A stretch of DNA of 34,265 nucleotides from a virus: positions 1 through 34,265 of the IMG/VR virus record IMGVR_UViG_3300024292_000008. One strand, given 5' to 3'. Position numbers and translations under genes: made by a program. Positions within the stretch are counted from its first letter, which is position 1, and every line of letters begins with the position of its first letter. Shown one piece after another: positions 570 through 19,995 of the stretch. The notes under the pieces were generated by a model that did no database searches, was not told the DNA's origin, and saw only the letters and a list, made by a program, of their open reading frames with translations.

Positions 570-571
570 GA

Positions 572-820: not shown

Positions 821-865
821 TGTATTGCTCCTGTCTGTACCTACCGTCCGATAGGCGTATGGTTG

Positions 866-3640: not shown

Positions 3641-4339
3641 TTAAGCGGCCTCCCATAAAGTTACAGTGTCGGACACGGTTGTCCATGTTTGTGAAGCGCC
3701 AGAGACGCCTACCCATTCGTTGTCGTCAGATGCAATATCAGACCAATCATTCGACGCCGGAGCCTTGTCAGCCCAAACCTCATCGCTCCCAGGCTTATCA
3801 AGCCAAAGTATCTGACCAGATGACGCCAAGACAGATGATGCGCTTATACCACCAATACCAACAGCAGTTATGTTGCCAGAGAATACAGTCTGACTCTCAG
3901 CCGATATTACAGCCCCTGCAGCAACAACCTTAAATCCAACCACTGTTGCAGATGACGCAACACCTATTTCTGATAGGCCCTGCTGGACCAGGACGCCATC
4001 TACCGACGACCCCGATGTAGCGCTTACAGCAACAACACCCGACCCGGTCATGAAGCCGGACACAGATGACGATGAAGCCGCCGATATTGCAGACCCTGTC
4101 TGTAGTAGTGCCTGCGGATCTGCCTGAACAGATGCAGTGGCGCTAATCAACGACGAGTCCTGGCGAACAGCAGTTCCGGATATTGACGCAGATGATACTG
4201 CCGATATAGAGCAGCTCGCCTCCCGTACAAACCCAGCAGAGACATTTAACGCGGACGTTGCCGATATTACGACTGCGCCATCTTCAAGATTAGCGGTCGA
4301 GTAGGCGGCCTGCCCGTATTTATATGCCCCGTAAAGCAT
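3641..4339 (-). CDS. Repetitive Ser/Ala-rich virion-region protein, 232 aa
   Basis: After a short Tyr-rich front (MLYGAYKYGQAAYS), most of the protein is an imperfect repeat built on ISA-S-S-S-G units, such as AVISAESQTVFSG and SAISAASSSSVSG, about eight times. The C-terminus is Trp/Asp-rich (WLDKPGSDEVWADKAPASN) and ends VTLWEAA. Short beta-strand repeats of this kind are typical of fibre or baseplate decoration proteins. The gene lies between the tail fibre and a Gp80-like tail protein. I do not recognise a named family; a structural role is inferred from composition and neighbours. Confidence 0.7.
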   Translation of the reverse strand: MLYGAYKYGQAAYSTANLEDGAVVISATSALNVSAGFVREASCSISAVSSASISGTAVRQDSSLISATASVQADPQALLQTGSAISAASSSSVSGFMTGSGVVAVSATSGSSVDGVLVQQGLSEIGVASSATVVGFKVVAAGAVISAESQTVFSGNITAVGIGGISASSVLASSGQILWLDKPGSDEVWADKAPASNDWSDIASDDNEWVGVSGASQTWTTVSDTVTLWEAA

Positions 4340-4340
4340 A

Positions 4341-4721
4341 TTAGTCTAGCGTGATATCTAAGTCGCCAGCCGGGATGCGGAATACGTCACCCGTAGCGAT
4401 AGTCTTGCTTGCAGTCAATGCACCATAGGCTAGCAGGTTACCGCTTGTGGCTGCGTCGAATACACCGACGTGCGTAATCGTGCCCCAGTCGCCTGTAGCT
4501 GTTGCCCACTCTTCTGCAGATGTGTTGCTAGCAGTGTTACCCGACACAGTAAATGCTGTGGCCTGGCGAGCATAACCGCTACCTGACAGCTCTGTACCGC
4601 CGCCTGTGTCACTAGGTGCTGCAGTGTATAGTCCAGTGTATAAAGTTCCTGGGGCTGTGTAGGCGTTGCCACCAAACACATGGTCCAGGACCTCTGTTTC
4701 TAAGAAGTTGGAAAAGCTCAT
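4341..4721 (-). CDS. Gp80-like phage tail fibre protein, 126 aa
   Basis: The sequence MSFSNFLETEVLDHVFGGNAY followed by LYTGLYTAAPSDTGGGTELSGSGYARQ is the signature of the small tail protein family often labelled phage tail fibre Gp80 (PF23140-like). The central part (WGTITHVGVFDAATSGN) and the closing FRIPAGDLDITLD also fit. Length matches the family. It overlaps the adaptor gene upstream by 4 bp (ATGA), indicating translational coupling. It is probably a small structural component at the tail tip or fibre attachment. Confidence 0.85.
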   Translation of the reverse strand: MSFSNFLETEVLDHVFGGNAYTAPGTLYTGLYTAAPSDTGGGTELSGSGYARQATAFTVSGNTASNTSAEEWATATGDWGTITHVGVFDAATSGNLLAYGALTASKTIATGDVFRIPAGDLDITLD

Positions 4722-5341
4722 CCGAGTCCTCGTATTTTAGTTGTCAGGCCAACACCAGAATAAGCTGCCTGTTCAGAAGTTAAGTTTAGTTTGTCTACCG
4801 CCTCACCATACAATCGAGCCCACACCTCAGCCCGGCCATCTTCAGCCAGGTATGGTGCAGAGTTCAGTAGTGAGCCGTACAGGTAGATGTCTGGATATGA
4901 TGTCAGCAGCCAGTTTGTAGTCGCGCTGTCGCTGAGAGAGGGTATCTGCTGGATGTATAGCAACTCAGCAGCATATGAGCCGTCAGGGGTAGGGAATACC
5001 TCAAACTGGCCCTCAGAGTGGGCATAGTATCTTGGCTTGCCTGCTACATTCTCTGAGCCCTGGCGCTTGTCAGCCATGGCCTGAGTGCTTAACAGGTCCA
5101 TCGCAGAGGTGTTCTGGCCGGTCAAATGCAGGCGTATAGTCTCAACCCAGTCGCCTGGCTTGGTTAGGTACTGGCCGTCAATTGTAGTCGATGCCCTGTT
5201 CTCCATCTGCCAGTGACGGATGTCTCGGTTCATCCTGGCCTCGCCCAACGCAATAAATGTCGGGATCACAGAAGTCAGGTCAGACCTGTTCAAAAAGTCT
5301 GCCATTGACGACTGCAGCTCGCTGTATGTGCTTATTGCCAT
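4718..5341 (-). CDS. Head-tail adaptor protein (SU10-type), 207 aa
   Basis: The opening MAISTYSELQSSMADFLNRSD, with VIPTFIALGEARMNRDIRHW after it, is characteristic of the adaptor found in SU10-like and many marine podoviruses. The middle reads PRYYAHSEGQFEVFPTPDG and LLYIQQIP, and the C-terminus has YLYGSLLNSAPYL. In that family it forms the ring between portal and nozzle. A TGGAGG ribosome-binding site precedes the ATG, and an extended -10 promoter (5359..5374) lies about 17 bp upstream. It is followed directly by tail-fibre genes, which would be co-transcribed. Confidence 0.88.
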   Translation of the reverse strand: MAISTYSELQSSMADFLNRSDLTSVIPTFIALGEARMNRDIRHWQMENRASTTIDGQYLTKPGDWVETIRLHLTGQNTSAMDLLSTQAMADKRQGSENVAGKPRYYAHSEGQFEVFPTPDGSYAAELLYIQQIPSLSDSATTNWLLTSYPDIYLYGSLLNSAPYLAEDGRAEVWARLYGEAVDKLNLTSEQAAYSGVGLTTKIRGLG

Positions 5342-5358
5342 TATGGCCTCCAGTTATT

Positions 5359-5374
5359 GGGCCGATTATACCAT
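5359..5374 (-). promoter_or_regulatory. Extended -10 late promoter before the adaptor gene
   Basis: The minus strand reads ATGGTATAATCGGCCC: a perfect TATAAT box with the extended -10 TGN directly upstream. No good -35 box lies 16-18 bp further up, which extended -10 promoters can do without. The same TGNTATAATCGG[CG]C block occurs at 8113..8128 and 30984..30998. The predicted start of transcription leaves a very short leader before the adaptor ATG at 5341. Confidence 0.7.
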
Positions 5375-8088: not shown

Positions 8089-8112
8089 AACTAAATCCAG
8101 TCAAGTCACAAA

Positions 8113-8128
8113 GGCCCGATTATATCAT
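8113..8128 (-). promoter_or_regulatory. Extended -10 late promoter before the 904-aa gene
   Basis: The minus strand reads ATGATATAATCGGGCC, a perfect TATAAT with extended TGA. It lies in the 45-bp gap between terL and the next gene, about 30 bp upstream of the ATG at 8088. It matches the elements at 5359..5374 and 30984..30998 over roughly 13 positions, including the CGG after the -10 box. No convincing -35 is seen. Confidence 0.7.
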
Positions 8129-8133
8129 ATTGA

Positions 8134-9417
8134 CTACACAATGCCTTGTAGGTTACGGCGTAATGGCTCACCCCAGCTAGATGATGTGGGCTTGTACCCA
8201 ACAGCCAGGTATCGCAGCGCATCGGCGCAGTGAGAGGTCCAGTCGTGTAGAGGTCGTCCACGCCAGGTCATGCCCTTGTCGTCGTAGTCTCGACGGTACT
8301 GCCGGATAGCATCAATGCCTCGCTCGCACTTCTCCTCATCGAACCAGCACCTGGGGAGCATGGAGCGCACAGACTGTATGCCATCATCGACCATCAACTG
8401 CGGAGCTATAGTGATTGGCCTCACCCCCAGGGCGCCAAGTGTCTCCAAGCGAGACTTACCTGAGCCTAGCTCCCTTACCCTGACATCGTGCGGCAGTACA
8501 TGGCTCTCGTATACATAGCCCTTTGAGTTTAACAGGGCGACATAATGGTCCAGACCTACACCGCTGCTCTCATAATAGTCAATAAGGCGCACCTCAGCCC
8601 CCACAAACTGCGCAAACCAAATAGAGGTACTATCACCTACCCCCAAGTCCCAGGCCGTTACAACGCCAACAGCGCGGTCGTATGGCACGTTGGTTAGTCT
8701 GCCCTCAGATTTGGCCTCTCGCATCTCTACAGCGTAGTAGGCGCCATCGGCGTGTATCTTCATCTCACCGTCCCAGACATGGCCATAATCATCCGGGCGC
8801 AGCTTAAAGTCTTCTTTGCGCTCGTTGTCTAGGACCTTTGGGAAGTAGGGGTTATCCTGCCAGTTGATCTCGCATATCTTGCTGTCCTGGGGAGGGTTGA
8901 CGCGGAAGCGCCTATGCGTTGCTGAGTGCTTGGTCTCAGGGTTCCAGGTCACCCATATCTCAGAGTCGTCCTCTCGGACAGTTGGGATTAGCTTCTGCCA
9001 GGCTGCATCAGATACACCCTCGGCCTCATCTACCCAGGCGATAATGATCCTGGCCTTTGACTTGATTGAGTCCAGGTTGCGGCGTAGACCGGCGAATACA
9101 TAGTTGATGCGGCCATCCTTGGACCTGACAAACTTCTCGCCTATCTCATAGTACGACAGAAGCCAAGGGACCGCCTTGATGGCAGACTTGATCTCTTCCA
9201 GGGATGATTCATCTAGGGAGTTTAGGTGCTCTCGTGCGCAGAGTATCTGGCCGCTGTTACCTGCCATGCCATGCCTGTACCCAGCCACTGCAGTCATCAG
9301 GGCAAAAGACCTGGTCTTGCCTGACCCTCGGCCACCGTATGCGCCTCTATACCGGGCCTCGCCTTCAAAGACCTCGACTATCTTGGGAGGGAGCCGAATC
9401 TCTGCAGTATCAGTCAT
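8134..9417 (-). CDS. terL: Terminase large subunit, 427 aa
   Basis: This is the packaging motor, which uses ATP to drive DNA into the prohead and cuts the concatemer. The ATPase half has a Walker A motif GGRGSGKT (residues 28-35), Walker B IIIAWVDEAE (124-133) and the coupling motif WVTWNP (155-160). The nuclease half has acidic residues D257 (AWDLGVGDST), D311 (LPHDVRV) and D399 (HCADALRYL), typical of the RNase-H-like domain of PBSX/Sf6-type terminases (Terminase_3 family). Length is normal. It overlaps terS by 8 bp. A late promoter follows its stop. Confidence 0.96.
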   Translation of the reverse strand: MTDTAEIRLPPKIVEVFEGEARYRGAYGGRGSGKTRSFALMTAVAGYRHGMAGNSGQILCAREHLNSLDESSLEEIKSAIKAVPWLLSYYEIGEKFVRSKDGRINYVFAGLRRNLDSIKSKARIIIAWVDEAEGVSDAAWQKLIPTVREDDSEIWVTWNPETKHSATHRRFRVNPPQDSKICEINWQDNPYFPKVLDNERKEDFKLRPDDYGHVWDGEMKIHADGAYYAVEMREAKSEGRLTNVPYDRAVGVVTAWDLGVGDSTSIWFAQFVGAEVRLIDYYESSGVGLDHYVALLNSKGYVYESHVLPHDVRVRELGSGKSRLETLGALGVRPITIAPQLMVDDGIQSVRSMLPRCWFDEEKCERGIDAIRQYRRDYDDKGMTWRGRPLHDWTSHCADALRYLAVGYKPTSSSWGEPLRRNLQGIV

Positions 9418-9829
9418 TGGCTGGTAATGGTTCTGCCACTAGCTTAATCACTGTGGGCTTGAACGAGTCATCAGATGATGTGTGGTCAATCTGCTGCTTG
9501 TCTCCATACTTCCTGGGCGACATCCTGGCAACCTTCCACTTCCTGCTGTCAATGCGCAGCTTGGCTATGTTAACGGCGTTAGAATCCACCCCCTCACCCA
9601 GCTCATCTGCTATGTCGATGATCTCATCAGCGTAGTAGTCAGCCTGGCAGTCACGGGCTCTCGCGTACTGCTCCGAAAATGCGACTTTATCAGGCTCTGT
9701 CAACCATTTCATTAGCGTAGACATAACAGGCATGCTGTCATCCCTGCAGATCTGCCTGGCGCTCTCACCAAGGGATAGCCTGCGACATATGTCAGCGGCT
9801 AGCTCATCTGTAAATATTGAAGGTCTCAT
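9410..9829 (-). CDS. terS: Terminase small subunit, 139 aa
   Basis: The protein opens with an HTH-like segment (FTDELAADICRRLSLGESARQICRDDSMP, residues 6-34), followed by the TLMKWL helix. It continues with EQYARARDCQADYYADEIIDIAD and a long central helix (NIAKLRIDSRKWKVARMSPRKYGDK), a pattern typical of Sf6/Bcep22-type small terminase subunits. These form a ring that recognises the packaging site. The gene overlaps terL and also overlaps the small gene upstream by 4 bp (ATGA), so all three are translationally coupled. A candidate recognition region lies upstream at 10303..10612. Confidence 0.88.
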   Translation of the reverse strand: MRPSIFTDELAADICRRLSLGESARQICRDDSMPVMSTLMKWLTEPDKVAFSEQYARARDCQADYYADEIIDIADELGEGVDSNAVNIAKLRIDSRKWKVARMSPRKYGDKQQIDHTSSDDSFKPTVIKLVAEPLPAND

Positions 9830-10011
9830 TTTAGGTCACAAGTGCAGTTGACCTCAAAACACCGGCACGTTCTTTCCATGCGCTGGTGAGTCAGGTACAG
9901 CACCTCAATCATCATTTGCTTATCCCGGTCCACTAGCGCCTCGGCGTAGTCTCGGACCAGGTCCATATCGGCCTCATGGACGTCTTCATCTGTAGTCAGT
10001 TTAATCATCAT
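9826..10011 (-). CDS. Small hypothetical protein upstream of terS, 61 or 46 aa
   Basis: This acidic, helical protein ends in a Cys cluster (TCRCFEVNCTCDLK) that could bind metal. Two starts are possible. The ATG at 10011 gives 61 residues but would begin within a few bases of the predicted transcript start from the -10 box at 10015..10020. The ATG at 9966 (MDLVRDYAEALVDRD) has a well-placed GAGG six bases upstream and gives 46 residues. I favour 9966 slightly but give the longer form. It overlaps terS as ATGA. No family recognised. Confidence 0.6.
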   Translation of the reverse strand: MMIKLTTDEDVHEADMDLVRDYAEALVDRDKQMMIEVLYLTHQRMERTCRCFEVNCTCDLK

Positions 10012-10020
10012 CCGATTATA
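10011..10020 (-). promoter_or_regulatory. TATAAT element before the terS operon
   Basis: The minus strand reads TATAATCGGA, sharing TATAATCGG with the three late promoters, but five Gs replace the extended TGN. If active, it would read through the small gene into terS and terL. The missing TG and the absence of a -35 make it less certain than the others. Confidence 0.45.
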
Positions 10021-10047
10021 CCCCCAACAGAGAATTTACGCACTAGA

Positions 10048-10302
10048 CTAAACCTCAGTCCCAAACAGCTCTTCTGCCATGGTGGCAAACTCCCGGAAGC
10101 CCTCGTAAGGCTCCAGGGCTGATACCTCATCCACCAGGTTGGCTACGTCGTCTTGCCAGTCAATCAGCTCATCGCGGAACTGTGATCGTGGCACGTCAGT
10201 GCTCATCAGCGACTCAATTATCGAGTCAAAGCGAATGATCTGATCATTGAGCTCCCACTCAAAGCAATCCTCAAGACTTTTTGATAAGTTTAAATTTTCC
10301 AT
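10048..10302 (-). CDS. Acidic hypothetical protein, 84 aa
   Basis: This strongly acidic, helical, soluble protein starts MENLNLSKSLEDCFEWELND, carries RDELIDWQDDVANLVDEV and ends ELFGTEV. No known motif, membrane segment or signal peptide is seen. An AAGGTGTC ribosome-binding site precedes the ATG. The composition suits a DNA mimic or a small host-takeover factor, but this is a guess. It follows a 310-bp gene-poor gap and lies just ahead of the terminase genes. Confidence 0.65.
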   Translation of the reverse strand: MENLNLSKSLEDCFEWELNDQIIRFDSIIESLMSTDVPRSQFRDELIDWQDDVANLVDEVSALEPYEGFREFATMAEELFGTEV

Positions 10303-10377
10303 GCGACACCTTTATGTCAATAGAATAAAGGCATTGTCCATGTTTTTACTGCGAATGTAAACCTTTCGGATTACAGG

Positions 10378-10446
10378 TTAGACCAGGTCTTCCCTCGCTA
10401 TTGCCATAAGACCTATAGTTACTACAATTACTCCGTACAGTACCAC
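10378..10446 (-). CDS. Possible 22-aa hydrophobic peptide
   Basis: A GTG start preceded by GAGAGGTG opens a 22-codon frame, MVLYGVIVVTIGLMAIARED plus two residues. It would form one short membrane helix with a charged end. Tiny membrane peptides occur in phage early regions, and the ribosome-binding site is good, but a frame this short can arise by chance. Real gene status is uncertain. Confidence 0.3.
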   Translation of the reverse strand: MVLYGVIVVTIGLMAIAREDLV

Positions 10447-10573
10447 AATACACCTCTCAGTTGATTAGATGCGCATTGTATAGAATGCTCTTTAATACCT
10501 GAAATGCATTCTCCTGATTCCATAAATGCCAAAAATGCATACTACAATGTACAAAGATAAGTCCGTTTCAGCT

Positions 10574-10605
10574 CCTGGTGGACCAGGCCAGGTCAAAAGG
10601 TCAAA
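10574..10605. repeat. Inverted repeat plus tandem AGGTCAAA
   Basis: On the plus strand CCTGGT (10574..10579) and ACCAGG (10582..10587) form a perfect 6-bp inverted repeat with a 2-bp spacer. Two AGGTCAAA copies follow directly at 10590..10597 and 10598..10605. No T-run follows in either direction, so this is not an intrinsic terminator. Such clustered half-sites could be a protein-binding site, possibly for terminase. Confidence 0.6.
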
Positions 10606-10612
10606 GGAGACC

Positions 10613-10813
10613 TCAGCCTAGGGGGTAAGCTATTAACTGATACCCTACAAAAGTGGCTAGCAAAAGGGTCGTGGCTATGAAATGTATCCTATGCACTACT
10701 ACCGGCTCGGTGACCCACGCTCTAAAACTACTGACTTTCGCCTCGATGTAAGACTGCCTGATGGCTTTGTCAGCGTAGGCGTTAGCCTCATAAATTAGCG
10801 TTTTAACGTCCAT
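10613..10813 (-). CDS. Small single-TM membrane protein, 66 aa
   Basis: The first 40 residues are a helical, mixed-charge region (MDVKTLIYEANAYADKAIRQ). One hydrophobic segment follows at about 44-63 (IHFIATTLLLATFVGYQLIA). The start codon overlaps the upstream stop as TAATG, so it is coupled to the 151-aa gene. No family is recognised. A role at the host membrane is suggested only by the TM segment; it is too far from the lysis genes to call a holin. Confidence 0.6.
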   Translation of the reverse strand: MDVKTLIYEANAYADKAIRQSYIEAKVSSFRAWVTEPVVVHRIHFIATTLLLATFVGYQLIAYPLG

Positions 10814-11268
10814 TAATGGCTCCCCATAGCAATTCTATCAATATGGCAAAGGTCTGCAAATGAATCCATCACAAGCTCCTCCATGCTTGGCTCAAGATAC
10901 GAGTATATCTGCTCGCGTATCTCCTCCAAGAAGTCAGGGCTATCCAGTATCGCCTCAAAGTCGTCCAAAGCCTCAGATAAGTAGGCATCGTTGTCCACAT
11001 CTTTGGCGTTGCGTTCTGCAGCATCACGGAACATAGCAGCAGCCATCCTGGAGGTTGCGTCCTCGCTGTAAACGCACTCCAAAGCCAGCATGCGCTTATC
11101 GCTTACTGTGTGTGGAAATACGTCATCCATCCAGGTTGGGTGAGTTGCAAGCCATAATGCTATCATCCCGTCTTTAGCAATGTCAGGCAGACTTTGGTAG
11201 CTGCCCTCCCACAATGGGTTTTCATCACGAATTAAGCCCACTGCTTCATTTAGTATTTTGTAACTCAT
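10813..11268 (-). CDS. Acidic hypothetical protein, 151 aa
   Basis: The start is taken at ATG 11268 (MSYKILNEAVGLIRDENP), which overlaps the upstream stop as TAATG and has GGGGGTG before it; a GTG two codons earlier is less likely. The protein is acidic and helical, with Asp/Glu-rich runs (LSEALDDFEAILDSPDFLEEI) and a Met-rich tail. No recognised domain. It sits in an operon of small accessory genes between the second early-type promoter and the terminase block. Confidence 0.6.
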   Translation of the reverse strand: MSYKILNEAVGLIRDENPLWEGSYQSLPDIAKDGMIALWLATHPTWMDDVFPHTVSDKRMLALECVYSEDATSRMAAAMFRDAAERNAKDVDNDAYLSEALDDFEAILDSPDFLEEIREQIYSYLEPSMEELVMDSFADLCHIDRIAMGSH

Positions 11269-11435
11269 TAGCACACCCCCAGGTTTTTACAGTCAAAGTA
11301 AGACATGTTTGATACCAGAGCAAAGATGATCAACACTATCAAAACCCCCACAAAGCCCTCGCGGCTCTCCGCTATATCCTGCTGCGCCTTGATGCGAGCA
11401 TTGGACTCTTTTAAACAGCACTCATTGATTCGCAT
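11268..11435 (-). CDS. Small membrane protein, 55 aa
   Basis: The start is placed at the ATG at 11435 (MRINECCLKESNARIK) because of the GGGGAA ribosome-binding site just upstream. A longer in-frame extension would run back through a GC hairpin (11459..11474) and into the preceding gene, so it is unlikely. A helical N-terminal half is followed by one membrane segment at about 29-44 (VGVLIVLIIFALVSNM), then a short Cys-containing tail. It overlaps the next gene as TAATG. Function unknown. Confidence 0.6.
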   Translation of the reverse strand: MRINECCLKESNARIKAQQDIAESREGFVGVLIVLIIFALVSNMSYFDCKNLGVC

Positions 11436-11458
11436 ATTATTCCCCTTGGTTTTTGATT

Positions 11459-11474
11459 GCCCCCCGTAGGGGGC
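11459..11474 (-). other. GC hairpin with TACG tetraloop
   Basis: On the minus strand GCCCCC-TACG-GGGGGC forms a perfect 6-bp stem with a UNCG-type tetraloop. It lies about 10 bp after the stop of the 93-aa gene and about 25 bp before the next start. No T-run follows on this strand, so it more likely stabilises the mRNA 3' end or slows read-through than terminates fully. Confidence 0.65.
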
Positions 11475-11484
11475 GGTTTGATTA

Positions 11485-11766
11485 TTAAGCCCAGCTAGGT
11501 TCATGGTTAACAATGTAGAGCATTTCTCTCTTTTCACCTTTTTCAGGGTGACCAGTCATTTCAAATTCTTGCAACCCGATATCATTTGATTCGAGCAGGC
11601 TACCTATTGTTCCTTCTGCGCTTTTGCGCTCCCAGCCGTTTTCGGTAAGCATTTCAATTAGGTCATCCATCCAGAAATAATCGCCCCACTCAAAATCTGA
11701 TTCACATTCGATAAAGTCATGAAACACTGCAAGAGCCGCTGTTTGATTAGAAGTTAATTTAGTCAT
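11485..11766 (-). CDS. Small acidic hypothetical protein, 93 aa
   Basis: The start is set at the ATG at 11766 (MTKLTSNQTAALAVFHDFIE), preceded by AAAGGTAATAA; the in-frame extension upstream would include the promoter itself and can be ruled out. The protein has an aromatic acidic centre (DFEWGDYFWMDDLIEMLTENGWERKSAEGTIGSL) that reads like a small winged-helix fold, then a charged tail. It is the first gene after the promoter at 11801..11829 and should be well expressed. No family recognised; a regulatory or host-interaction role is a guess. Confidence 0.7.
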   Translation of the reverse strand: MTKLTSNQTAALAVFHDFIECESDFEWGDYFWMDDLIEMLTENGWERKSAEGTIGSLLESNDIGLQEFEMTGHPEKGEKREMLYIVNHEPSWA

Positions 11767-11800
11767 TTGTTTATTACCTTTGTTTTTTGATTGAGGTGTA

Positions 11801-11848
11801 ATAATACCCCCCAACAAATAAACTGTCAAGCTTTTCGGTTACAAACAG
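11801..11848 (-). promoter_or_regulatory. Sigma70-type promoter with conserved upstream block
   Basis: On the minus strand a perfect -35 TTGACA (11824..11829) and TATTAT (11801..11806) are spaced by exactly 17 bp. Upstream, CTGTTTGTAACCGAAA ends at 11848, 19 bp beyond the -35 edge. The same block at the same distance lies upstream of the promoter at 18690..18718. The transcript leaders also match (CACCTCAATCAA against CACCTCACTCAA). Confidence 0.85.
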
Positions 11849-11854
11849 ATGAAA

Positions 11855-12331
11855 TTAATTATATTTTGCGCTTTTAATTAGGTTATCTTTAGCCCACAAA
11901 GGTTGCAAATTTGATGGGTGGTTAATTACATCAAAATCATTTATACCGTTATCTAAAAAATCTTTTATTGGCCTAATGTGATCAATATGCCATTCCTTCC
12001 TATTCTCCCAGCTCATCCCCTCACAAAATAAAGACTCTATCCGACTAACAACAATATTATCTTTCTTGATCAGGAGCCATCTTAAATGCGCTCTTATCCT
12101 ATTAGATACTTTAGTCCTTGCGTCATCTCTCTTGCAGTAAAAGCAAGTCTGGCATTCCAAAAACCTTTTCTTTGCGCCGACACCTGTAACGCATTCACAC
12201 CCATCATCTTGCCAAAACCCTTCGCTTAAATATGATTCCCCGCTACCAAAACATAAATCACACCGGCTGCTAGGACGGTAATAATCAAAATCCAAAAAAG
12301 AAAGCATTTTCTGCCCGCAGCATATATCCAT
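11855..12331 (-). CDS. HNH endonuclease with Cys-rich front, 158 aa
   Basis: The C-terminal half carries the HNH core: WHIDHIRPIKDF (H115, D117, H118), then NHPSNLQPLWAKDN with N141 and N150. The N-terminal half has several Cys pairs (C4-C5, C24/C27, C45/C47, C60/C63/C66) that probably form zinc fingers. The protein is presumably a DNA-cutting endonuclease, either a mobile free-standing homing enzyme or a packaging/recombination helper. GGGGAATATT precedes its ATG. It lies between NinG and the second early-type promoter. Its AT-richer text than the flanks hints at separate acquisition. Confidence 0.82.
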   Translation of the reverse strand: MDICCGQKMLSFLDFDYYRPSSRCDLCFGSGESYLSEGFWQDDGCECVTGVGAKKRFLECQTCFYCKRDDARTKVSNRIRAHLRWLLIKKDNIVVSRIESLFCEGMSWENRKEWHIDHIRPIKDFLDNGINDFDVINHPSNLQPLWAKDNLIKSAKYN

Positions 12332-12351
12332 AATATTCCCCGTTATTTAAA

Positions 12352-12741
12352 TTAATTATATGAGACTGGCTCATAGCTCTCATCAGCGGTCATTTTCTTA
12401 TGCTCTTCTCGGTAGTGCTTGGCTATCTCTGCCCTTAGCTTCTTGTTGGTTGGCATTAGCACCTGCCACTTCTCTCTAAGCATATCCAGGTGGCCCTGGC
12501 CTAGATGCGACTCAAGCCATACACTGAAGTCGAGCGGGTTGGCCGTAAACACTTTATGGCAGTAATGGCACAAGCATAGTGCGTTATCCATAGACCAGCG
12601 CACCGACTTAGCTGCCCTGCCCCAGATATGTGCGCACTCCATCCTGCCATCTTGCTTTCCGCAGTGCTCGCACTGGAAGCCAGCCTTCTGCCTGACCACA
12701 TCACTAAACCACTTGTCTGCAGCGTCGCGCTTAATCGGCAT
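12352..12741 (-). CDS. ninG: NinG-like HNH recombination protein, 129 aa
   Basis: The protein starts MPIKRDAADKWFSDVVRQKAG and has a zinc-binding HNH layout: C24-x2-C27, ECAHIWGR (H38), W49-S-M-D-N53, then CHYCH (C58, C61, H62). This arrangement, with a following AHLG-like helix and a DMLREKWQVL segment, matches the NinG/Rap family that resolves recombination intermediates in lambdoid phages, though a generic HNH protein remains possible. It overlaps DUF3310 by 11 bp and belongs to the recombination operon with NinB, ERF and YqaJ. Confidence 0.75.
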   Translation of the reverse strand: MPIKRDAADKWFSDVVRQKAGFQCEHCGKQDGRMECAHIWGRAAKSVRWSMDNALCLCHYCHKVFTANPLDFSVWLESHLGQGHLDMLREKWQVLMPTNKKLRAEIAKHYREEHKKMTADESYEPVSYN

Positions 12742-13030
12742 CGTCGAATATCTCGCGGCTGATTAGCTTCGCCAGGTACCACTGAGCTTTCTGCAGGTCC
12801 TCAACAGGGTTGTTCTTATAGGTATACCGCCATAGATACTTCATGCAGTTGCCTTTCAGATATCCGCGAAATGCCTCTGGGGTCATAGACTCCTCAATGG
12901 CCTCGATGCACTCGATGCCGCCGGTTCTATAATGGCTAGGGCTGTTAACCGCATCATCTTCTGGCCAATCTTCGATAGCTGGTATAGATTCCTTTAATCG
13001 TCGCCAATCTTCGCTTGTAGCGTGCTTCAT
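12731..13030 (-). CDS. DUF3310 protein, 99 aa
   Basis: Residues 28-95 carry the DUF3310 signature: VNSPSHYRTGGIECIEAIEE, then FRGYLKGNCMKYLWRY and NPVEDLQKAQWYLAKLI. The domain occurs alone in many phages and at the end of T7 gp1.7, a nucleotide kinase, so a role in nucleotide metabolism is often suggested for it. The start overlaps the upstream zinc-ribbon gene as ATGA, and its end overlaps NinG. No P-loop is visible, so kinase activity cannot be claimed. Confidence 0.9.
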   Translation of the reverse strand: MKHATSEDWRRLKESIPAIEDWPEDDAVNSPSHYRTGGIECIEAIEESMTPEAFRGYLKGNCMKYLWRYTYKNNPVEDLQKAQWYLAKLISREIFDDAD

Positions 13031-13206
13031 TCTTCATTCTCCTCAATCTGGATTTTAATTTCATCAGGCGTATTAAGATCGCAGCGGTGACATAAACCAT
13101 AGCTATCACCGTAATCATCAACCCAATACGACAGAGCGATTCCACATTCACAGTAAAGTCTTTTAACCGTTGTCTTCTTTTTATGCAGCGAAATAACATT
13201 ACCCAT
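13027..13206 (-). CDS. Small zinc-ribbon protein, 59 aa
   Basis: This short frame (ATG at 13206, TGA at 13027..13029) encodes a basic front, MGNVISLHKKKTTVKRL, then YCECG (C19, C21) and GLCHRC (C39, C42), a plausible zinc ribbon, and an acidic tail ending IEENEE. Its stop and the DUF3310 start form ATGA, and its start overlaps the end of the metallophosphoesterase gene, the tight coupling seen elsewhere here. An alternative frame starting at 13199 gives 81 basic residues that look far less like a protein. Function unknown; nucleic-acid binding is plausible. Confidence 0.75.
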   Translation of the reverse strand: MGNVISLHKKKTTVKRLYCECGIALSYWVDDYGDSYGLCHRCDLNTPDEIKIQIEENEE

Positions 13207-14377
13207 CCAGAGCCTCCACTGTAATCTTCACCCTAGAGTCTTCACCGTATTTTTTATGGTAGACAATAGCCGTCATGCTCCGCTCTGATGAAAATCCCGA
13301 ATCTGAGTGCCATTGGTCTGCAGAAGTAAGGGAACCGAACCAGGAGAACTGCATGCTGCCATACTCCCGGCTGACATGGTGGTGGATATGCCCCAGGAGA
13401 CAGTACCTATTCTTATGTGATGACCACTCGTTGTCCAGGTTCTTGATAACCGTCTGCAGTATCTGCTCTGGCTTTATCCGGTCCCCGTGGTGGTAAACCC
13501 ACATATTATTGCCCCACTCGTAATGCAAAAACTTTGAGTAGTTTTCTAGCACGTTTACCCTGGGCTCTTTCTGATACAGAATCTCCAAGCAGCTAGACAG
13601 GTGGCAGGCCATATCGCTGTCATGGTTGCCCCGCACATTTACTACTATGACGTTTTTGTGGACCGTCAGCATCTTGTCGATCAACATCTGGAACAGCCTA
13701 CCAGCCAGCTTAAACGTCTTGCCGATTCGAGTATCTACATCTACCCTGGTTCCAGCGGTGGTCTCGTTTTTGCTTGAGTCGGCGTGGAAGAAGTCACCCA
13801 CGTTTAACAGTATCGCGGTCTCACAGTCACCTACTCTGACTAACAGCCTATCAACAGCGTCAATAAGAACCTTGGTCGCTATCTTGATATCCCAGTCGTC
13901 GTTGTCCAGCTTGGTAGCAGCAGAAGCTAACATCCCGTAGTGGTGGTCGCCTATGATATAGGTGGCGAGGTAGTCGGCATTGACTTTCTTTGGCGCTTTA
14001 ACCGGCTTCTTAAATCCAGCCAGGTCATCCTTCATGCCCTCCATCATCGCCTCAACCTTCTCTTGCAAACTGCGCTTCAGCGGCTCCTGGATAACCCACT
14101 GTAGGGCGATGTCGCCGTCAGAGTTAAACGCAGTCGAAACCCGCTTTGCCTCAAAGCCCTCCATGGTCTCATTGTCTACATTGCGGTGCGGTGCCACTGC
14201 CTTGCTAGCAGCCCTGCTCTCCATAGCCCTCATCACTTTATCAACACTGCGGCGATCCACCCCCAGGGCTTTTGCTGCCTTGTTGTTGCTGCCATTTGTT
14301 ATGACTGCCTGGCATATCTCTGCTTGCCTCGCAGTATTTGCATAATCCATTAAAAGTGCTGGGTCTATATTTGGCAT
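13199..14377 (-). CDS. Metallophosphoesterase with N-terminal HTH, 392 aa
   Basis: The calcineurin-like fold is clear from its ordered metal motifs: GDHHYG (143-148), GDFFH (194-198), GNHD (250-253), HHGD (296-299) and GHIHHH (329-334). These bind two metal ions in phosphatases and in Mre11/SbcD-type nucleases. Residues 15-55 (AEICQAVITNGSNNKAAKALGVDRRSVDKVMRAM) form a helix-turn-helix, so the enzyme may act on DNA. Position among recombination genes supports a DNA-processing role, but substrate cannot be told from sequence. It is followed by an overlapping zinc-ribbon gene and preceded closely by NinB. Confidence 0.9.
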   Translation of the reverse strand: MPNIDPALLMDYANTARQAEICQAVITNGSNNKAAKALGVDRRSVDKVMRAMESRAASKAVAPHRNVDNETMEGFEAKRVSTAFNSDGDIALQWVIQEPLKRSLQEKVEAMMEGMKDDLAGFKKPVKAPKKVNADYLATYIIGDHHYGMLASAATKLDNDDWDIKIATKVLIDAVDRLLVRVGDCETAILLNVGDFFHADSSKNETTAGTRVDVDTRIGKTFKLAGRLFQMLIDKMLTVHKNVIVVNVRGNHDSDMACHLSSCLEILYQKEPRVNVLENYSKFLHYEWGNNMWVYHHGDRIKPEQILQTVIKNLDNEWSSHKNRYCLLGHIHHHVSREYGSMQFSWFGSLTSADQWHSDSGFSSERSMTAIVYHKKYGEDSRVKITVEALDG

Positions 14378-14378
14378 A

Positions 14379-14825
14379 CTAATTATCCTGCTTGCGTTTT
14401 AGTTCAGTCCACTCATTGTACTCTGGCGTTACTAAATATACACCCCTGTCAGCCGCCCAGGCGTATACCTCGTCCATAAAATGGCACATCTCGCCTTTTT
14501 TTAGCTTCGCTGTACTTTGTATCTGGTCCTTCAAAACAGTTTGCCCGACCTTAATTGTTTTAGTCTGCAAAAACTTATGCTTCATCATCCACTTAACACC
14601 CTCTGGTGTCGCGTCAGGAATGTCTTTGATAAACTTTTCAGATAGTTGTCTGCACCACTTGTGAAATAAAGCGTTTTGGTCCAGTGAGCGAGAATCTACC
14701 CAGGGCTCCAATTTAACAGCAAGCGGGACAGCGTAATCCCAATCCTGCAGCCTCTTAATTAGATACTGCACTTTTTTATCGACCTCAACAGCGTGCGATA
14801 TCTTTACATAATCGCCCTGGCTCAT
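14379..14825 (-). CDS. ninB: NinB (Orf-family) recombination protein, 148 aa
   Basis: The core RSLDQNALFHKWCRQLSE (about residues 46-63) and the later KKGEMCHFMDEVYAWAADRGV are hallmarks of NinB, lambda Orf, which binds single-stranded DNA and helps load annealing proteins. I set the start at the ATG at 14825 (MSQGDYVKIS), which makes ATGA with the upstream stop and has GAGG upstream; an in-frame ATG six codons earlier would overlap more. Length fits the family (about 140-150). It works with ERF and YqaJ encoded further upstream. Confidence 0.9.
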   Translation of the reverse strand: MSQGDYVKISHAVEVDKKVQYLIKRLQDWDYAVPLAVKLEPWVDSRSLDQNALFHKWCRQLSEKFIKDIPDATPEGVKWMMKHKFLQTKTIKVGQTVLKDQIQSTAKLKKGEMCHFMDEVYAWAADRGVYLVTPEYNEWTELKRKQDN

Positions 14826-15127
14826 AGACGCATCCTCAGCCACTTGTCACTTTGCTTCATTTCTGACGTTTCCAGACGATCATATAGGCTGGCTTTTGAC
14901 TTGCCTATACCGCCGAACGCATCCTCGGTTGCTCTTACCTGCTTGTCGCCAACCTCAGCTTTACCTACCATCCTACTATGCATCGTTTTGTTTTTTATGC
15001 CTGCCTTGGCGGCAATCTCTCTCAGCGTGTAAAAACAGCCTGTCACTAGGTTTTCGTGGCTTCCAACAAATTTGTACTTTTTTGGCTGCTTACCGCTAGT
15101 CCTGCTGTCGAATCTTCTGTCAGGCAT
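14822..15127 (-). CDS. Hypothetical basic protein with HTH-like helix, 101 aa
   Basis: This basic protein begins MPDRRFDSRTSGKQPKKYKFVG. A central YTLREIAAKAGIKNKTMHSRM (residues 33-53) reads as a helix-turn-helix, and the tail is Lys/Arg-rich. It overlaps both neighbours by a few bases, between the replication-like gene and NinB. DNA binding is likely, perhaps in replication or control of the early operon; no named family is recognised. Confidence 0.65.
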   Translation of the reverse strand: MPDRRFDSRTSGKQPKKYKFVGSHENLVTGCFYTLREIAAKAGIKNKTMHSRMVGKAEVGDKQVRATEDAFGGIGKSKASLYDRLETSEMKQSDKWLRMRL

Positions 15128-15491
15128 TCTTCAGCTCCCCGTCGTAATAGAATCCAAACTTATCAAGATAATACTGCTTCATCGCCAATTGCGCATCTGT
15201 ATTCAGCCAACTGATGTCAGTCATCTGCATGTCTATAGACTTGGCCCTAATGCTTTCGTTCTTGCCAGCCTTCTTAGCCATCGGAGAGCCGCCCTGGTTC
15301 TGCGCCCTAGCTAGCCAAGAGTTAACAAAGCGCTTGATGCCCTGCTTCGTTTTGCGTTTGGTTGGATTCGCGTCGCACCAAGACTCCATTGCCATGAGCT
15401 CTTGGTGAACATTGACGGCAGGATAGGCTCTCTGCCAGGCGATAGTGTCAGCTTCATCTGGCTGCCAGTCTTCTTTAGTATTTAATAGCAT
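15120..15491 (-). CDS. Replication-protein-like (C-terminal domain type), 123 aa
   Basis: The segment WQRAYPAVNVHQELMAMESWCDANPTKRKTKQGIKRFVNSWLARAQNQGG (residues 24-73) is the short helical module usually found at the C-terminus of phage replication initiators and DnaT-like or helicase-loader proteins. Here it stands near the N-terminus of a small protein with an extra tail (WLNTDAQLAMKQYYLDKFGFYYDG). The usual front DNA-binding domain is absent, so it could be a split or shortened initiator. AAGGGGAAAAC precedes the ATG. Helicase-loading is an inference from the module alone. Confidence 0.65.
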   Translation of the reverse strand: MLLNTKEDWQPDEADTIAWQRAYPAVNVHQELMAMESWCDANPTKRKTKQGIKRFVNSWLARAQNQGGSPMAKKAGKNESIRAKSIDMQMTDISWLNTDAQLAMKQYYLDKFGFYYDGELKNA

Positions 15492-15500
15492 GTTTTCCCC

Positions 15501-15992
15501 TTATCCGTGGTTAGCAAATTTGCCGTGAAGCTTTTCCCGCAAATCCTTGATGGCCTGCTCCGCATCTTTTAGATTATTGTGCAGCCCGCCGTAATGCATT
15601 TTAGAATCACAGCGCATCTTAGCTATCCACTTACCCGCAGGCTTATGCCAGCATACGCCCTTCACGCCACTGGTGCTGTTTTTATTGATCGACCTGTTGT
15701 GCTGGTTTTGCCGCGCAGACACAGCACGCAAATTTTCGATCCGGTTATCATGCCGGTCGTTGTTGATGTGGTCCAGGTACTTAGGCATGTACCCGTGGTG
15801 ATATAAAAAAATAAGTCTGTGTTGATAATATGGGACTCTATTTACGCCGCAAATTTTGTATAACCCTTTGCCGCCGCCTATTAGCCTGCCAGACTTTCGG
15901 CCATTCCCTTCGCGCCAGTACAAGTTACCATCGCGGTACTCAAATTTTTCCTTAATTTCCTTTAATAACTGCTTTTCGCTTAGCTCTTTCAT
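15501..15992 (-). CDS. HNH endonuclease with AP2 DNA-binding domain, 163 aa
   Basis: The centre has LDHINNDRHDNRIENLRAV (HNH core), then NQHNRS and SGVKGVCWHKPAGKWIAKM, the AP2-type DNA-binding module that homing endonucleases of this class carry at the C-terminus. I set the start at ATG 15992 (MKELSEKQLL) with GGGGAAG upstream; a longer frame to 16067 lacks a ribosome-binding site. The gene begins inside the end of the small gene at 15952..16107, overlapping by 41 bp, and a TTGACA-type promoter sits just upstream. It is likely a mobile free-standing endonuclease. Confidence 0.9.
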   Translation of the reverse strand: MKELSEKQLLKEIKEKFEYRDGNLYWREGNGRKSGRLIGGGKGLYKICGVNRVPYYQHRLIFLYHHGYMPKYLDHINNDRHDNRIENLRAVSARQNQHNRSINKNSTSGVKGVCWHKPAGKWIAKMRCDSKMHYGGLHNNLKDAEQAIKDLREKLHGKFANHG

Positions 15993-16107
15993 CGCACTTC
16001 CCCGTTGGTTTTGAAACCTTAGTATCTTTGTTTCCGAAAATATTGTCAAAGTTTTTATCAAACTCAACTTTATTAGTCGGCCGCTGTTTACTTCCTTTAC
16101 CGCTCAT
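15952..16107 (-). CDS. Conserved small phage protein (MSGKGSKQRP type), 51 aa
   Basis: A short frame from ATG 16107 to TAA 15952 encodes MSGKGSKQRPTNKVEFDKNF then DNIFG and a basic tail. The MSGKGSxxRP start followed by F-x-x-NFDxIFG is one I know as a very common tiny protein of phages of Gram-negative bacteria, usually in the early region. GGGAGTGAGAG precedes the start. Its last 41 bp overlap the HNH-AP2 gene in another frame. Function unknown; the conservation suggests a real role. Confidence 0.8.
   Translation of the reverse strand: MSGKGSKQRPTNKVEFDKNFDNIFGNKDTKVSKPTGKCDERAKRKAVIKGN
16021..16049 (-). promoter_or_regulatory. Candidate promoter upstream of the HNH-AP2 gene
   Basis: On the minus strand TTGACA (16044..16049) and GATACT (16021..16026) are spaced 17 bp, inside the MSGKGSK gene. 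The -35 is perfect and the -10 matches 4 of 6. The predicted start lies about 20 bp before the HNH ATG, so it may give this endonuclease independent expression. Confidence 0.45.
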
Positions 16108-16181
16108 CTCTCACTCCCATGGCTCGGCAAGCCTCGCCCAGTATTTAATAAATGTTTCTTTATATTTACTTTATTTCTCAT
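16104..16181 (-). CDS. Possible 25-aa basic peptide
   Basis: ATG 16181 opens a 25-codon basic frame (MRNKVNIKKHLLNTGRGLPS plus five) whose TGA overlaps the next start as ATGA. That coupling is typical here, but no ribosome-binding site is seen and the size allows chance. It may be a leader peptide for the small gene that follows. Confidence 0.3.
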   Translation of the reverse strand: MRNKVNIKKHLLNTGRGLPSHGSER

Positions 16182-16528
16182 AATTTGCAAGACGATATAA
16201 CCCTTTCTACTTAGCAAAGTAGATTTTTAAATCTGAGGGCTTGGCGACTCAGTGACTAATTTATGCTCGTATTTAGAATCACGCCATCCTGGCCGTCGTT
16301 ATTTCCTGCTCGGCAGTCAAACCGATTAGGAGGTGCTAATAGAGGGGTCACTCTCGATCATGGGTTATTAATTCCCACGCCACACACCCGAACACTTGAG
16401 AGAAAAAGAAAGGGAGACCTAGTGTACTGTATCGGACAGTATGGTAAACTTGCCTTTCTTGTTCTTCGCACAACAAGTATAAGCCTTTCCCCGGCTTACT
16501 GTAAAGCCCCCGCAATGGGGGTTTTATT
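16182..16528. other. Structured non-coding region between HTH regulator and MSGKGSK gene
   Basis: About 350 bp with no convincing gene on either strand. It holds several inverted repeats: CTACTT/AAGTAG (16207..16222) overlapping AGATTT/AAATCT (16221..16234), ATTAG/CTAAT around a GAGGTG loop near 16330, TACTGT/ACAGTA (16425..16441), CTTGTT/AACAAG (16458..16477), TAAGCC/GGCTTA (16480..16498) and the terminator at 16503. The dense run of stems ending in a T-tract suits a plus-strand small RNA, an origin, or a control region for the HTH protein. Confidence 0.55.
16425..16441. promoter_or_regulatory. Candidate operator palindrome
   Basis: TACTGT-ATCGG-ACAGTA is a perfect 6-bp inverted repeat with a 5-bp spacer. 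On the minus strand it lies between a weak TTTACC -35 and TACACT -10 (spacing 16), the usual place for a repressor operator. It is near the only HTH regulator gene (16529..16732), which may bind it. The spacing differs from a LexA box. Confidence 0.5.
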
Positions 16529-16532
16529 TTAT
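16503..16532 (+). terminator. Intrinsic terminator (plus strand), after a tandem hairpin
   Basis: CCCCC-GCAAT-GGGGG, extended by an A/T stem to nine pairs with one G-T wobble, is followed on the plus strand by TTTTATTTT. A second stem, TAAGCC/GGCTTA, lies just before it (16480..16498). On the minus strand only CTTT follows, so it is weaker there, although it sits directly after the stop of the HTH gene and could serve both strands. Confidence 0.65.
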
Positions 16533-16732
16533 TCTCCTTTTAGCTGGCAAAACTGATCCAGCGTCAAGTCAAATATCTTGCACAATCCCTGCACAGTGTG
16601 CAGCTTCATGTTTTCCTGTTTACGCCACTGAAACACTCTCTGGCGGCTTACGTTCATTAAAGTTGCCAGGCGGCTAGAATTGATGTTGTTTAGCTCCTGG
16701 GCGGTTATTAAGCACTGTCCTGCATTAGTCAT
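16529..16732 (-). CDS. Cro/C1-type HTH regulator, 67 aa
   Basis: A small DNA-binding protein. Residues 18-60 (NSSRLATLMNVSRQRVFQWRKQENMKLHTVQGLCKIFDLTLDQF) form a helix-turn-helix of the Cro/C1 (XRE) class. No dimerisation or cleavage domain follows, so it resembles Cro more than CI. CAGGAAT lies before the ATG. It stands between the recombination genes and the structured region containing a palindrome at 16425..16441, its likely target. It is the only clear transcription regulator in the window; without an integrase, lysogeny is not indicated. Confidence 0.8.
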   Translation of the reverse strand: MTNAGQCLITAQELNNINSSRLATLMNVSRQRVFQWRKQENMKLHTVQGLCKIFDLTLDQFCQLKGE

Positions 16733-16803
16733 AATCAGTATTCCTGTGTTATCCTTGGGACGTAGGGCTGTTCCCCCGGTCCTGCATTCTCCTATGGTAG
16801 TTT

Positions 16804-16841
16804 GCCCCCTGAAAGCACTTGTGCCGTAAGGGGGCTTTTTT
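16804..16841 (+). terminator. Intrinsic terminator pointing plus, next to the SSB-like gene
   Basis: GCCCCC (16804..16809) pairs with GGGGGC (16830..16835), with an inner GCAC/GTGC stem, and TTTTTT follows at 16836..16841 on the plus strand. All genes here are minus-strand, so it would stop antisense transcripts before they enter the recombination operon. On the minus strand it is an A-rich-flanked hairpin three bases after the SSB-like stop. Confidence 0.65.
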
Positions 16842-16843
16842 AC

Positions 16844-17140
16844 CTAGAACGGGATGTCTTCATCGAGCTGTTCAATGCTCATATCGGCCTGCTTTGCAGG
16901 TGCTGCTGCCTGGCCGTCAGTGTAAATCACCTTCACATTACCCAAGATTGGCGTCTGAACCTTAGCGTCGCGCTCTTCTTTGGTGACCGATTGAGATATA
17001 AATCCATTGTTCTCGTACTGGTCTTGCTGATCGGTATCCACAAAGGTAGTCAGGTCCAGGTACGTGCCCTTGGCGCCCTTGTACAGTCGTGACTTGTCGA
17101 TCTTGGTAACATCGATTCGTACAGATAATCCTACTTTCAT
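16844..17140 (-). CDS. SSB-like single-stranded DNA-binding protein, 98 aa
   Basis: The protein begins MKVGLSVRIDVTKIDKSRLYKGAKGTYLDLTTFVD, a beta-rich OB-fold-like pattern with conserved KGTYLDLTTF, continues through TKEERDAKVQTPILGNVKVIY and ends EQLDEDIPF. The acidic DEDIPF tip (93-98) is the same kind of tail SSB proteins use to bind partners. The type is common beside ERF and YqaJ in marine phages. It overlaps YqaJ by 4 bp. It likely coats ssDNA during annealing and replication; full SSB homology should be confirmed by structure. Confidence 0.72.
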   Translation of the reverse strand: MKVGLSVRIDVTKIDKSRLYKGAKGTYLDLTTFVDTDQQDQYENNGFISQSVTKEERDAKVQTPILGNVKVIYTDGQAAAPAKQADMSIEQLDEDIPF

Positions 17141-17736
17141 TTTAACTTCTCCACTTGGTTTAAAATTTCCGCCACGGCCTTATCGACCTCGGCAGACAGT
17201 TTTGCGATATAGTCATCATCGCGTTCTACACGCACTAGAACGTGCGGCATTTCAGGATGGTAGGCAAAAAAGTCCCACCAATCACGTTTAGTTATCCACA
17301 TACAGCCTTGGATTTGCTGCCAGTATTTCTTAACACCAACCTGCGGGTCTCTGAGATAGCTGACCATCGTTTTAGGGGCAGGCGCTTTTATTTCTAAGCC
17401 GCCCTCTTCTTTGATCAAACCGTCAGGCGAGCAGCCAAACTCCCAGCTAGTGTCGAGAATAAAGCCAGTCTCGATTACATCATTGCCAGAAATGAATTCG
17501 TAGGACTCCCTAGCCTCTGGCTCAATCTCATTGCCGCGCAGCATCCACTCAGTAACATGGAAGGGCTCAGAGTGCCCTGTAAGGCGTTCTGCGATCAATT
17601 CATTGATGTACCCATCAGCAGAGGTGCTAGGCTTCCCAGTCTGAGTAATTAGCTTGGAAAACATGCTAGCGGATGGCTTGCCCAGTCTTGCAGCAAGCCA
17701 CTCTGGTGAACCCTGCTCATGGTCCAGGATGATCAC
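17137..17736 (-). CDS. YqaJ-type recombination exonuclease, 199 aa
   Basis: This is a lambda-exonuclease/YqaJ-family 5'-3' nuclease, which chews double-stranded ends so that ERF can anneal the exposed strands. Motifs seen are QGSPEWLAARLGKPSASMFSK (8-28), RGNEIEPEAR (67-76), CSPDGL with D105 (102-107) and GLEIKAP with E115 and K117 (113-119), the PD-(D/E)xK catalytic set, then QIQGCMWITKRDWWDF. Length is typical. It overlaps both ERF and the SSB-like gene by 4 bp, so the three form a coupled recombination cassette. Confidence 0.94.
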   Translation of the reverse strand: MIILDHEQGSPEWLAARLGKPSASMFSKLITQTGKPSTSADGYINELIAERLTGHSEPFHVTEWMLRGNEIEPEARESYEFISGNDVIETGFILDTSWEFGCSPDGLIKEEGGLEIKAPAPKTMVSYLRDPQVGVKKYWQQIQGCMWITKRDWWDFFAYHPEMPHVLVRVERDDDYIAKLSAEVDKAVAEILNQVEKLK

Positions 17737-18438: not shown

Positions 18439-18458
18439 AATTGCCTCCTACAGCAAAT

Positions 18459-18472
18459 GCCCCCGAAGGGGC
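18459..18472 (-). other. GC hairpin with TTCG tetraloop
   Basis: On the minus strand GCCCC-TTCG-GGGGC is a very stable UUCG-capped stem about 8 bp after the stop of the 58-aa gene and 20 bp before the next start. ATTT follows rather than a T-run. It may protect the first gene's mRNA or partly terminate. The tetraloop orientation shows it acts on the minus-strand RNA. Confidence 0.65.
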
Positions 18473-18479
18473 GATTTAT

Positions 18480-18739: not shown

Positions 18740-18766
18740 AAAAAAAAGCCCCGCACTAGGCAGGGC
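18740..18766 (-). terminator. Strong intrinsic terminator after endolysin
   Basis: On the minus strand a 7-bp stem (GCCCTGC with G-CGGGGC, one T-G wobble, 5-nt loop CTAGT) at 18748..18766 is followed by eight Ts (18740..18747). It lies about 18 bp after the endolysin stop and separates the late unit from the early promoter. Confidence 0.9.
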
Positions 18767-19955: not shown

Positions 19956-19978
19956 AAAAAAAGGGGGCCGGAGCCCCC
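19956..19978 (-). terminator. Intrinsic terminator after the capsid gene
   Basis: On the minus strand GGGGGC-TCCG-GCCCCC is followed by seven Ts (19956..19962). The stem is perfect. It lies 18 bp after the capsid stop and ahead of the DUF6321-like gene, so it likely sets a capsid-rich transcript with partial read-through. Confidence 0.9.
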
Positions 19979-19995
19979 CTTCTGTACTACATCGA

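Follow-up and report, generated by a model that had tools for sequence, protein, structure and literature searches.

Introduction

In ColE1, a folded transcript (RNA II) runs into the origin region and is accompanied by a counter-transcript (RNA I). The genome of phage lambda holds, in this order, an HTH-type regulator (cII), the counter-directed oop/pO transcript and the replication initiator O. The epsC/EAR processive antitermination RNA is known for its operon-wide effect. As described in the excerpt of PMC3985674, transcription from pR has a stimulating effect on the lambda origin, which the convergent pO/oop modulates, oop being a short leftward transcript. According to the excerpt of PMC9378689, the put RNA of HK022 modifies the polymerase and measures about 70 nt, with two stem-loops. 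In the part of Weinberg 2010 consulted (PMC2864571), the STAXI motif is a small pseudoknot present in two or three tandem repeats and the epsC motif includes a pseudoknot.

Here, a non-coding gap in an IMG/VR virus record is compared to these systems. The window, i.e. the whole stretch of DNA that was analysed, has 34,265 bases and a GC content of 49%, with all credible genes on the minus strand. Among its proteins are an SU10-type portal, a major capsid protein, an ERF annealing protein and a YqaJ exonuclease; terminase subunits, NinB and NinG are encoded as well. The window proteins scanned, a set short of some small ORFs, include no recognised polymerase, primase or helicase. The carriers of the element are a family of uncultured marine viruses of bacteria.

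Materials and methods

Searches with the HTH, ERF and rep proteins yielded 201 loci, many overlapping by contig, and the gap was recognisable by blastn in 171 of them. Near-identical copies were removed, leaving 58 sequences. Four of these have no core after HTH: L122, L126 and L127 are inverted genomes with the RNA located elsewhere, and in L124 no RNA core was found using covariance model R1. Two forms of the RNA were distinguished, type 1 (nine sequences including the window, alignment A2) and type 2 (alignments A1 with 44 and A3 with 38 sequences). L038 was dropped by the extraction rule. A3 also excludes six sequences whose RNA has an additional hairpin of 26 nt inserted (L022, L028, L029, L047, L101 and L195). 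The stem of this insert changes in a compensatory manner, with GCCATG/CATGGC versus GACATG/CATGTC.

R1 was built from type 2 only, and the window was not part of the training set. The viral collection was searched with a DNA pattern for a segment of the RNA, and at least 114 loci were newly fetched. For the analysis of gene order, 116 loci were oriented by the RNA, the truncated loci L272, L297 and L330 being dropped and five inverted genomes added.

Results and discussion

As originally predicted, a gap of 347 bp lacks any credible gene: after the HTH ORF has stopped at 16529, the next ORF that has a ribosome site begins only at 16107. The longer ORFs across the gap reach only 97 aa (plus strand) and 55 aa (minus strand). 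In the 39 core sequences, nearly all frames of both strands hold stops, being open in 9 of 234 sequence-frames. The gap is thus real, and only its extent had been drawn too short: the conserved element continues to about 16114, with an AT-rich tract and a second hairpin that were omitted earlier (Table 1).

The richness in inverted repeats was confirmed as well. Positions 16182-16528 hold seven non-overlapping perfect stems of at least 5 bp versus a mean of 2.5 in dinucleotide shuffles, with one of 200 shuffles reaching seven; for 16425-16528, the numbers are four and 0.8, four being reached by one of 200. The fold z-score equals -3.08 for 16180-16535 (plus strand) and -1.97 for 16110-16535 (minus strand). 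No tRNA or tmRNA was found.

Table 1 Features of the leader region and of the neighbouring genes
Feature	Position	Strand	Evidence or remark
Cro/C1-type HTH gene, 67 aa	16529..16732	-	upstream of RNA; Pfam HTH_26 E=4.2e-6
Intrinsic terminator facing against the genes; end of putative antisense transcript	16501..16527	+	terminator scan; recurrent in relatives
Inverted repeat TAAGCC/GGCTTA in promoter spacer	16480..16498	.	letters change in step among relatives
Sigma-70-like promoter TTTACA-18-TATACT	16476..16505	-	consensus match; equivalent in 15/15 HTH-group A/B representatives
Leader 5' extension, HTH-group A/B only	16393..16475	-	outer stem weakly supported: 1/11 predicted pairs compensatory
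Conserved structured RNA core	16193..16392	-	R1 covariance model match and A2 pair counts
Helix P2, GGTGT (16384-16388) / GCACC (16332-16336)	16332..16388	-	encloses P3 and P4; pair counts
P3	16359-16379	-	inside P2
P4	16341-16354	-	inside P2
Hairpin P5	16306..16329	-	loop 16315-16319, TGACT, forms pseudoknot
Pseudoknot 3' side AGTCA	16253..16257	-	pairs with 16315-16319
Helix P6 CTGAG/CTCAG	16233..16252	-	A3: 100% paired, two-sided change in 3/7 pairs
3' hairpin P7 TCTACTT/AAGTAGA	16206..16223	-	90.6% paired in A3
AT-rich linker	16139..16199	.	holds AT-richest 47 bp of whole window: 16140-16186, 87% AT
Hairpin GGC-GA-GG-CUUG-CC-GA-GCC beside ribosome site	16121..16138	-	outer helix covaries, GA/GA kept
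Ribosome-binding site GGGAG	16114..16118	-	sequence
First ORF, 51 aa	15952..16107	-	member of one of the 15 unrelated families that occupy this site
rep, 123 aa, related to replication-initiation protein C-terminus	15120..15491	-	phrog_1032 E=1e-4

Conserved fold and its strand

Judging from the alignments, the gap encodes an RNA of about 200 nt whose structure is conserved, comprising at least seven helices and a loop pseudoknot that covaries. Covariation across related phages, which the original prediction had proposed as a check, was found: in A3, 97.1% of the 1354 cells of the named structure (P2, P3, P4, P5, pseudoknot, P6, P7) are paired, with two-sided changes in 19 of 40 pairs. None of 500 shuffles reaches this paired fraction and two-sided count; such shuffle counts are not probabilities, and the structure is drawn from the same sequences on which it is scored. 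When the partners were moved by one to three columns as a control, only 35.8-51.3% of the cells were paired. The pseudoknot pairs at every position in all 34 distinct type-2 rows, again with two-sided changes. Its variants, formed with the P5 loop, read CGGTT/AACCG, CGGTA/TACCG and CGATT/AATCG in type 2 and TGACT/AGTCA in type 1. Since these sequences differ between the types, the helix has been rewritten from one to the other.

Type 1 is close-knit, with eight distinct rows, 94.4% of cells paired and two-sided changes in 7 of 40 pairs, a count reached by 31 of 500 shuffles. Its mismatches include two P3 pairs broken in five of the eight distinct rows and one P5 pair broken in six. R1 finds the type-1 window at 16201-16390 on the minus strand with 67 bits (E=2.3e-16). 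The model also confirms 100/100 and 14/14 pattern-found viral loci among the matches listed, the pattern itself overlapping the RNA partly, and 0 of 19 pattern matches in bacterial genomes. RNAalifold on A1 predicts fewer helices, in agreement on P5, P6 and part of P4, and proposes a further contact between the P3 loop and a 3' AGGG, in which all changes are one-sided.

Changes in a genuine RNA helix often go by way of G-U. On the gene (minus) strand, the cells of A3 include 77 G-U versus 17 A-C, some of the latter falling in P7, where the alignment is poor. When the changes are placed by parsimony on a tree built from this alignment, G-U is gained 31 times and A-C 4 times, and type 1 holds 37 G-U versus 2 A-C on the minus strand. 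Reading the plus strand swaps these counts, which is not expected of an RNA helix. Therefore, the structure is placed on the minus strand, bearing in mind that single-stranded DNA would give the same asymmetry, so that the test fixes the strand and not the chemistry. Both this asymmetry and the co-orientation with rep oppose the structured plus-strand RNA of the original prediction. Folding energies do not decide the strand: the minimum free energy is lower on the gene strand in 26 of 38 sequences, and the mean energy z-scores are alike, with -1.02 for the gene strand and -0.87 for the anti-strand (14 sequences). Energy z-scores alone would not reveal the RNA structure.

Genomic context

Among the 116 oriented loci, 96 have HTH upstream and rep downstream, ten have HTH upstream and reach the contig edge before rep, and four have a contig edge upstream and rep downstream. 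In the other six, the ERF-exonuclease-HTH cassette is inverted, with rep still downstream on the strand of the RNA. Wherever rep can be reached, it lies downstream and co-directional (106/106 loci), at a distance of 475-2395 nt. For type 1, rep is downstream in 22 of 25 loci and the remaining three reach the contig edge. Because rep is always co-directional downstream, even when the HTH cassette is inverted, the RNA is assigned to the rep operon and not to HTH. The suggestion that the gap is a control region of the HTH gene does not agree with the six inverted genomes, in which the HTH cassette lies about 1.5-2.3 kb off and the RNA stays with rep.

The rep protein shares 49% over 59 residues with a 'replisome organizer', and its assignment is based on weak profile matches (1e-4 to 2e-3, no match in one of five relatives). 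Direct repeats of at least 14 nt within 300 bp, as looked for in an iteron-type origin, were not found in positions 10000-17400, the region searched near rep. The slot between the leader hairpin and rep (15501-16107) is an exchange hot spot, with HNH homing-type endonucleases and many unrelated small genes.

Putative promoters adjoin the RNA. All 15 group A/B representatives have a TTTAC[AT]-17/18-[TG]ATACT pair located 86-92 nt before the core. For the 38 non-A/B loci, a looser -35/-10 pair ending 6-16 nt before the core is present in 31, versus 2.0 in mononucleotide shuffles, and missing in seven; these promoters are consensus matches in related sequences and hence not independent. The inverted repeat in the promoter spacer has the variants AAGCC/GGCTT, GCTC/GAGC, CCCT/AGGG and CACTC/GAGTG in relatives. 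It was considered as an HTH operator and rejected, as its letters vary while the HTH recognition region is nearly constant. Upstream of the RNA in the inverted genomes L126, L127 and L129 (partly also L125 and L122), GGTTACATT...AATGTAAACC-like palindromes are located in the divergent region, perhaps as an operator.

Downstream of the core, an AT-rich linker (median 59 nt, mean 81% AT) and, near the first gene's ribosome site, a GA/GA hairpin were parsed in 134 of 142 loci. The outer helix of this hairpin reads GGC/GCC in 85 cases, GGT/ACC in 18, GGC/GTC in 13, GGC/GCT in 12, GGT/GCC in five and GAC/GTC in one; as the parser accepted only hairpins with GA/GA and three outer pairs, it accounts in part for the constancy of both. 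A strict hairpin pattern left out 44 of 170 loci, and the 19 of these that were inspected all have a variant. In the 125 loci with the strict pattern, the first gene after the leader belongs to one of 15 unrelated families.

A mostly alike non-coding stretch of about 600 bp is seen in the cultured Vibrio phages 1.275.O (L356:3065-3666) and 1.122.A (L357:1691-2300), where it precedes a methylase gene, two genes upstream of a related rep protein. It gave no R1 match, nor a credible Rfam match in L356, and is possibly a different RNA in the same place. Run with filters off, R1 gave no significant match in either of these phages, in Vibrio phage LP.2 or in Pseudoalteromonas phage Pq0.

The plus-strand intrinsic terminator that was predicted to close the gap is present and recurs in relatives. 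Many loci have a strong anti-gene terminator, which either follows HTH immediately (group A/B) or precedes it by about 87 bp. Using a stricter cut, an anti-strand terminator around HTH was detected in 72 of 100 pattern-found loci and a gene-strand one in 7 of 100; among five inverted genomes scanned, one has the anti-gene terminator. Based on this recurrence, a counter-directed (plus-strand) antisense transcript likely exists. A conserved plus-strand promoter for it was not identified. The only other intrinsic terminators in the window according to the scan are 18458-18473 (plus) and 18748-18766 and 19958-19983 (both minus), and the latter two flank the region of an endolysin-like gene.

The predicted AGGAGGTG loop occurs on the plus strand (stem 16325-16340). 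Its interpretation as an anti-Shine-Dalgarno decoy did not hold, since the letters belong to two helices (P2, 3' side, and P5, 5' side) and relatives do not preserve them. CACCTCC is shared by the window and L009; other type-1 rows have CACCTCT, CACCCCC or CACCTTT in its place, and type 2 lacks it.

Possible function of the element

From the sequence comparisons, it is likely that the element is a structured minus-strand leader RNA (5' leader) of the rep operon. Transcription would start at the adjoining promoter pair, the RNA would fold while being made, and RNA polymerase would continue through the AT-rich tract into the replication genes. Since fifteen unrelated first genes can follow, an action on the translation of a single gene is unlikely; most likely, the target of the RNA would be the transcript, polymerase or DNA in general. 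Candidate actions are operon-wide elongation control or a transcription-dependent opening of an origin at the AT-rich tract. The replication origin considered in the original prediction may lie at or beside the element. The counter-directed transcript, ended by the plus-strand terminator, would probably oppose the leader, as pO/oop does with pR in lambda. What can be read from the aligned loci is the fold with its strand, a constant position before rep, the AT-rich tract alongside and the exchange of first genes; each mechanistic step beyond a structured minus-strand leader has clearly less than an even chance. The RNA is not followed by a terminator, which fits a leader as well as a stable RNA made by processing.

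A put-like leader, i.e. an RNA that binds RNA polymerase and allows readthrough of distal terminators, would explain why the element immediately follows a promoter pair, heads a long operon and is indifferent to the first gene, and putL of HK022 is likewise just downstream of PL (excerpt of PMC9378689). This is nevertheless rather unlikely, given a putRNA of about 70 nt with two stem-loops versus about 200 nt and a pseudoknot here, and no intrinsic gene-strand terminator in positions 1-16190 of the window. It is unlikely, too, that the RNA is the working part of a replication origin, in which a persistent RNA-DNA hybrid or opening at the AT-rich tract, as with ColE1 RNA II, would initiate the synthesis of phage DNA and the terminated counter-directed transcript would act as antagonist. 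The circumstantial evidence is a structured transcript followed by the AT-richest 47 bp of the window. If true, tailed phages without recognised polymerase, primase, helicase or iterons would have an origin directed by RNA. The highly conserved unpaired letters GATAG and CGATAC around a compact pseudoknotted fold could suggest a riboswitch or attenuator sensing a metabolite or protein. That seems quite improbable, as no conserved gene is directly downstream (15 first-ORF families in 125 loci, with rep constant but 475-2395 nt away), an expression platform (terminator or masked ribosome site) was not recognised, and Rfam gave no match.

The two remaining explanations concern the nature of the molecule. 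A single-stranded DNA structure acting as a strand-initiation site for replication would adjoin rep and the AT-rich tract as observed, and G-T pairs form in DNA too, making the strand asymmetry compatible. However, the promoter pair next to the element and the ribosome-site hairpin after it fit a transcript, and some members have UUCG-type and CUUG loops, which stabilise RNA; a DNA structure is therefore most improbable. Alternatively, the functional RNA could be a plus-strand, oop-like antisense transcript running from the AT-rich tract to 16528. The strong terminator, which recurs among relatives at either of two sites, points in this direction, as does the lambda transcript antisense to cII beside the origin (excerpt of PMC3985674). 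We consider this very doubtful: the G-U intermediates of the minus strand would be A-C on the plus strand, a conserved plus-strand promoter is not apparent, the terminator lies beyond HTH in many genomes, and it was not found in four of the five inverted genomes scanned.

Comparison with known systems

No match at the gathering threshold was obtained in Rfam 15, introns and known leaders included, for the window and six relatives; the best permissive matches scored 17.7 bits of 55 and 18.6 of 100. The type-2 cores had no blastn match in 50,697 phage records (cultured phages) or in the plasmid collection, and the window's own sequence matched the phage records only with short chance-like pieces. 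A literature search of partial coverage found no report of this leader RNA. With the minus-strand leader, a marine phage lineage thus yields a pseudoknotted RNA class of about 200 nt that is supported by covariation and missing from Rfam 15, and that is fixed ahead of replication genes while the next gene swaps freely. It offers a concrete target, i.e. whether a phage RNA controls the start of replication or the processivity of the polymerase, and the R1 model by which to find the RNA.

Like epsC/EAR, the element is a pseudoknotted leader, for which an operon-wide effect may be considered, though here without an Rfam match. Like the STAXI motif, it is a pseudoknotted element near DNA-handling genes that may be RNA or single-stranded DNA; STAXI consists of small tandem pseudoknots in the part of PMC2864571 consulted, versus a single 200-nt domain here. 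HK022 putL and putR are alike in being structured RNAs just behind an early phage promoter with a proposed operon-wide effect. They differ in size and fold, with about 70 nt, two stem-loops and no pseudoknot described in the excerpt of PMC9378689, and a far larger fold of about 200 nt and seven helices, counting the pseudoknot, in this family. ColE1 RNA II/RNA I resembles the locus, by description only, in its folded transcript into the origin region and its counter-transcript, the origin and the counter-transcript of the locus being putative. Lambda cII - oop/pO - O is similar in the order of an HTH-type regulator, a counter-directed transcript and a replication initiator, with transcription near the origin of lambda and, in the locus, near a possible one. 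The terminator of an oop-type opposite transcript recurs here, the transcript being putative and its promoter not identified, and the structured part is not on the antisense strand according to the G-U/A-C asymmetry. The excerpt of PMC3985674 mentions no such leader RNA in lambda, whereas here a 200-nt gene-strand RNA precedes a variable first gene.
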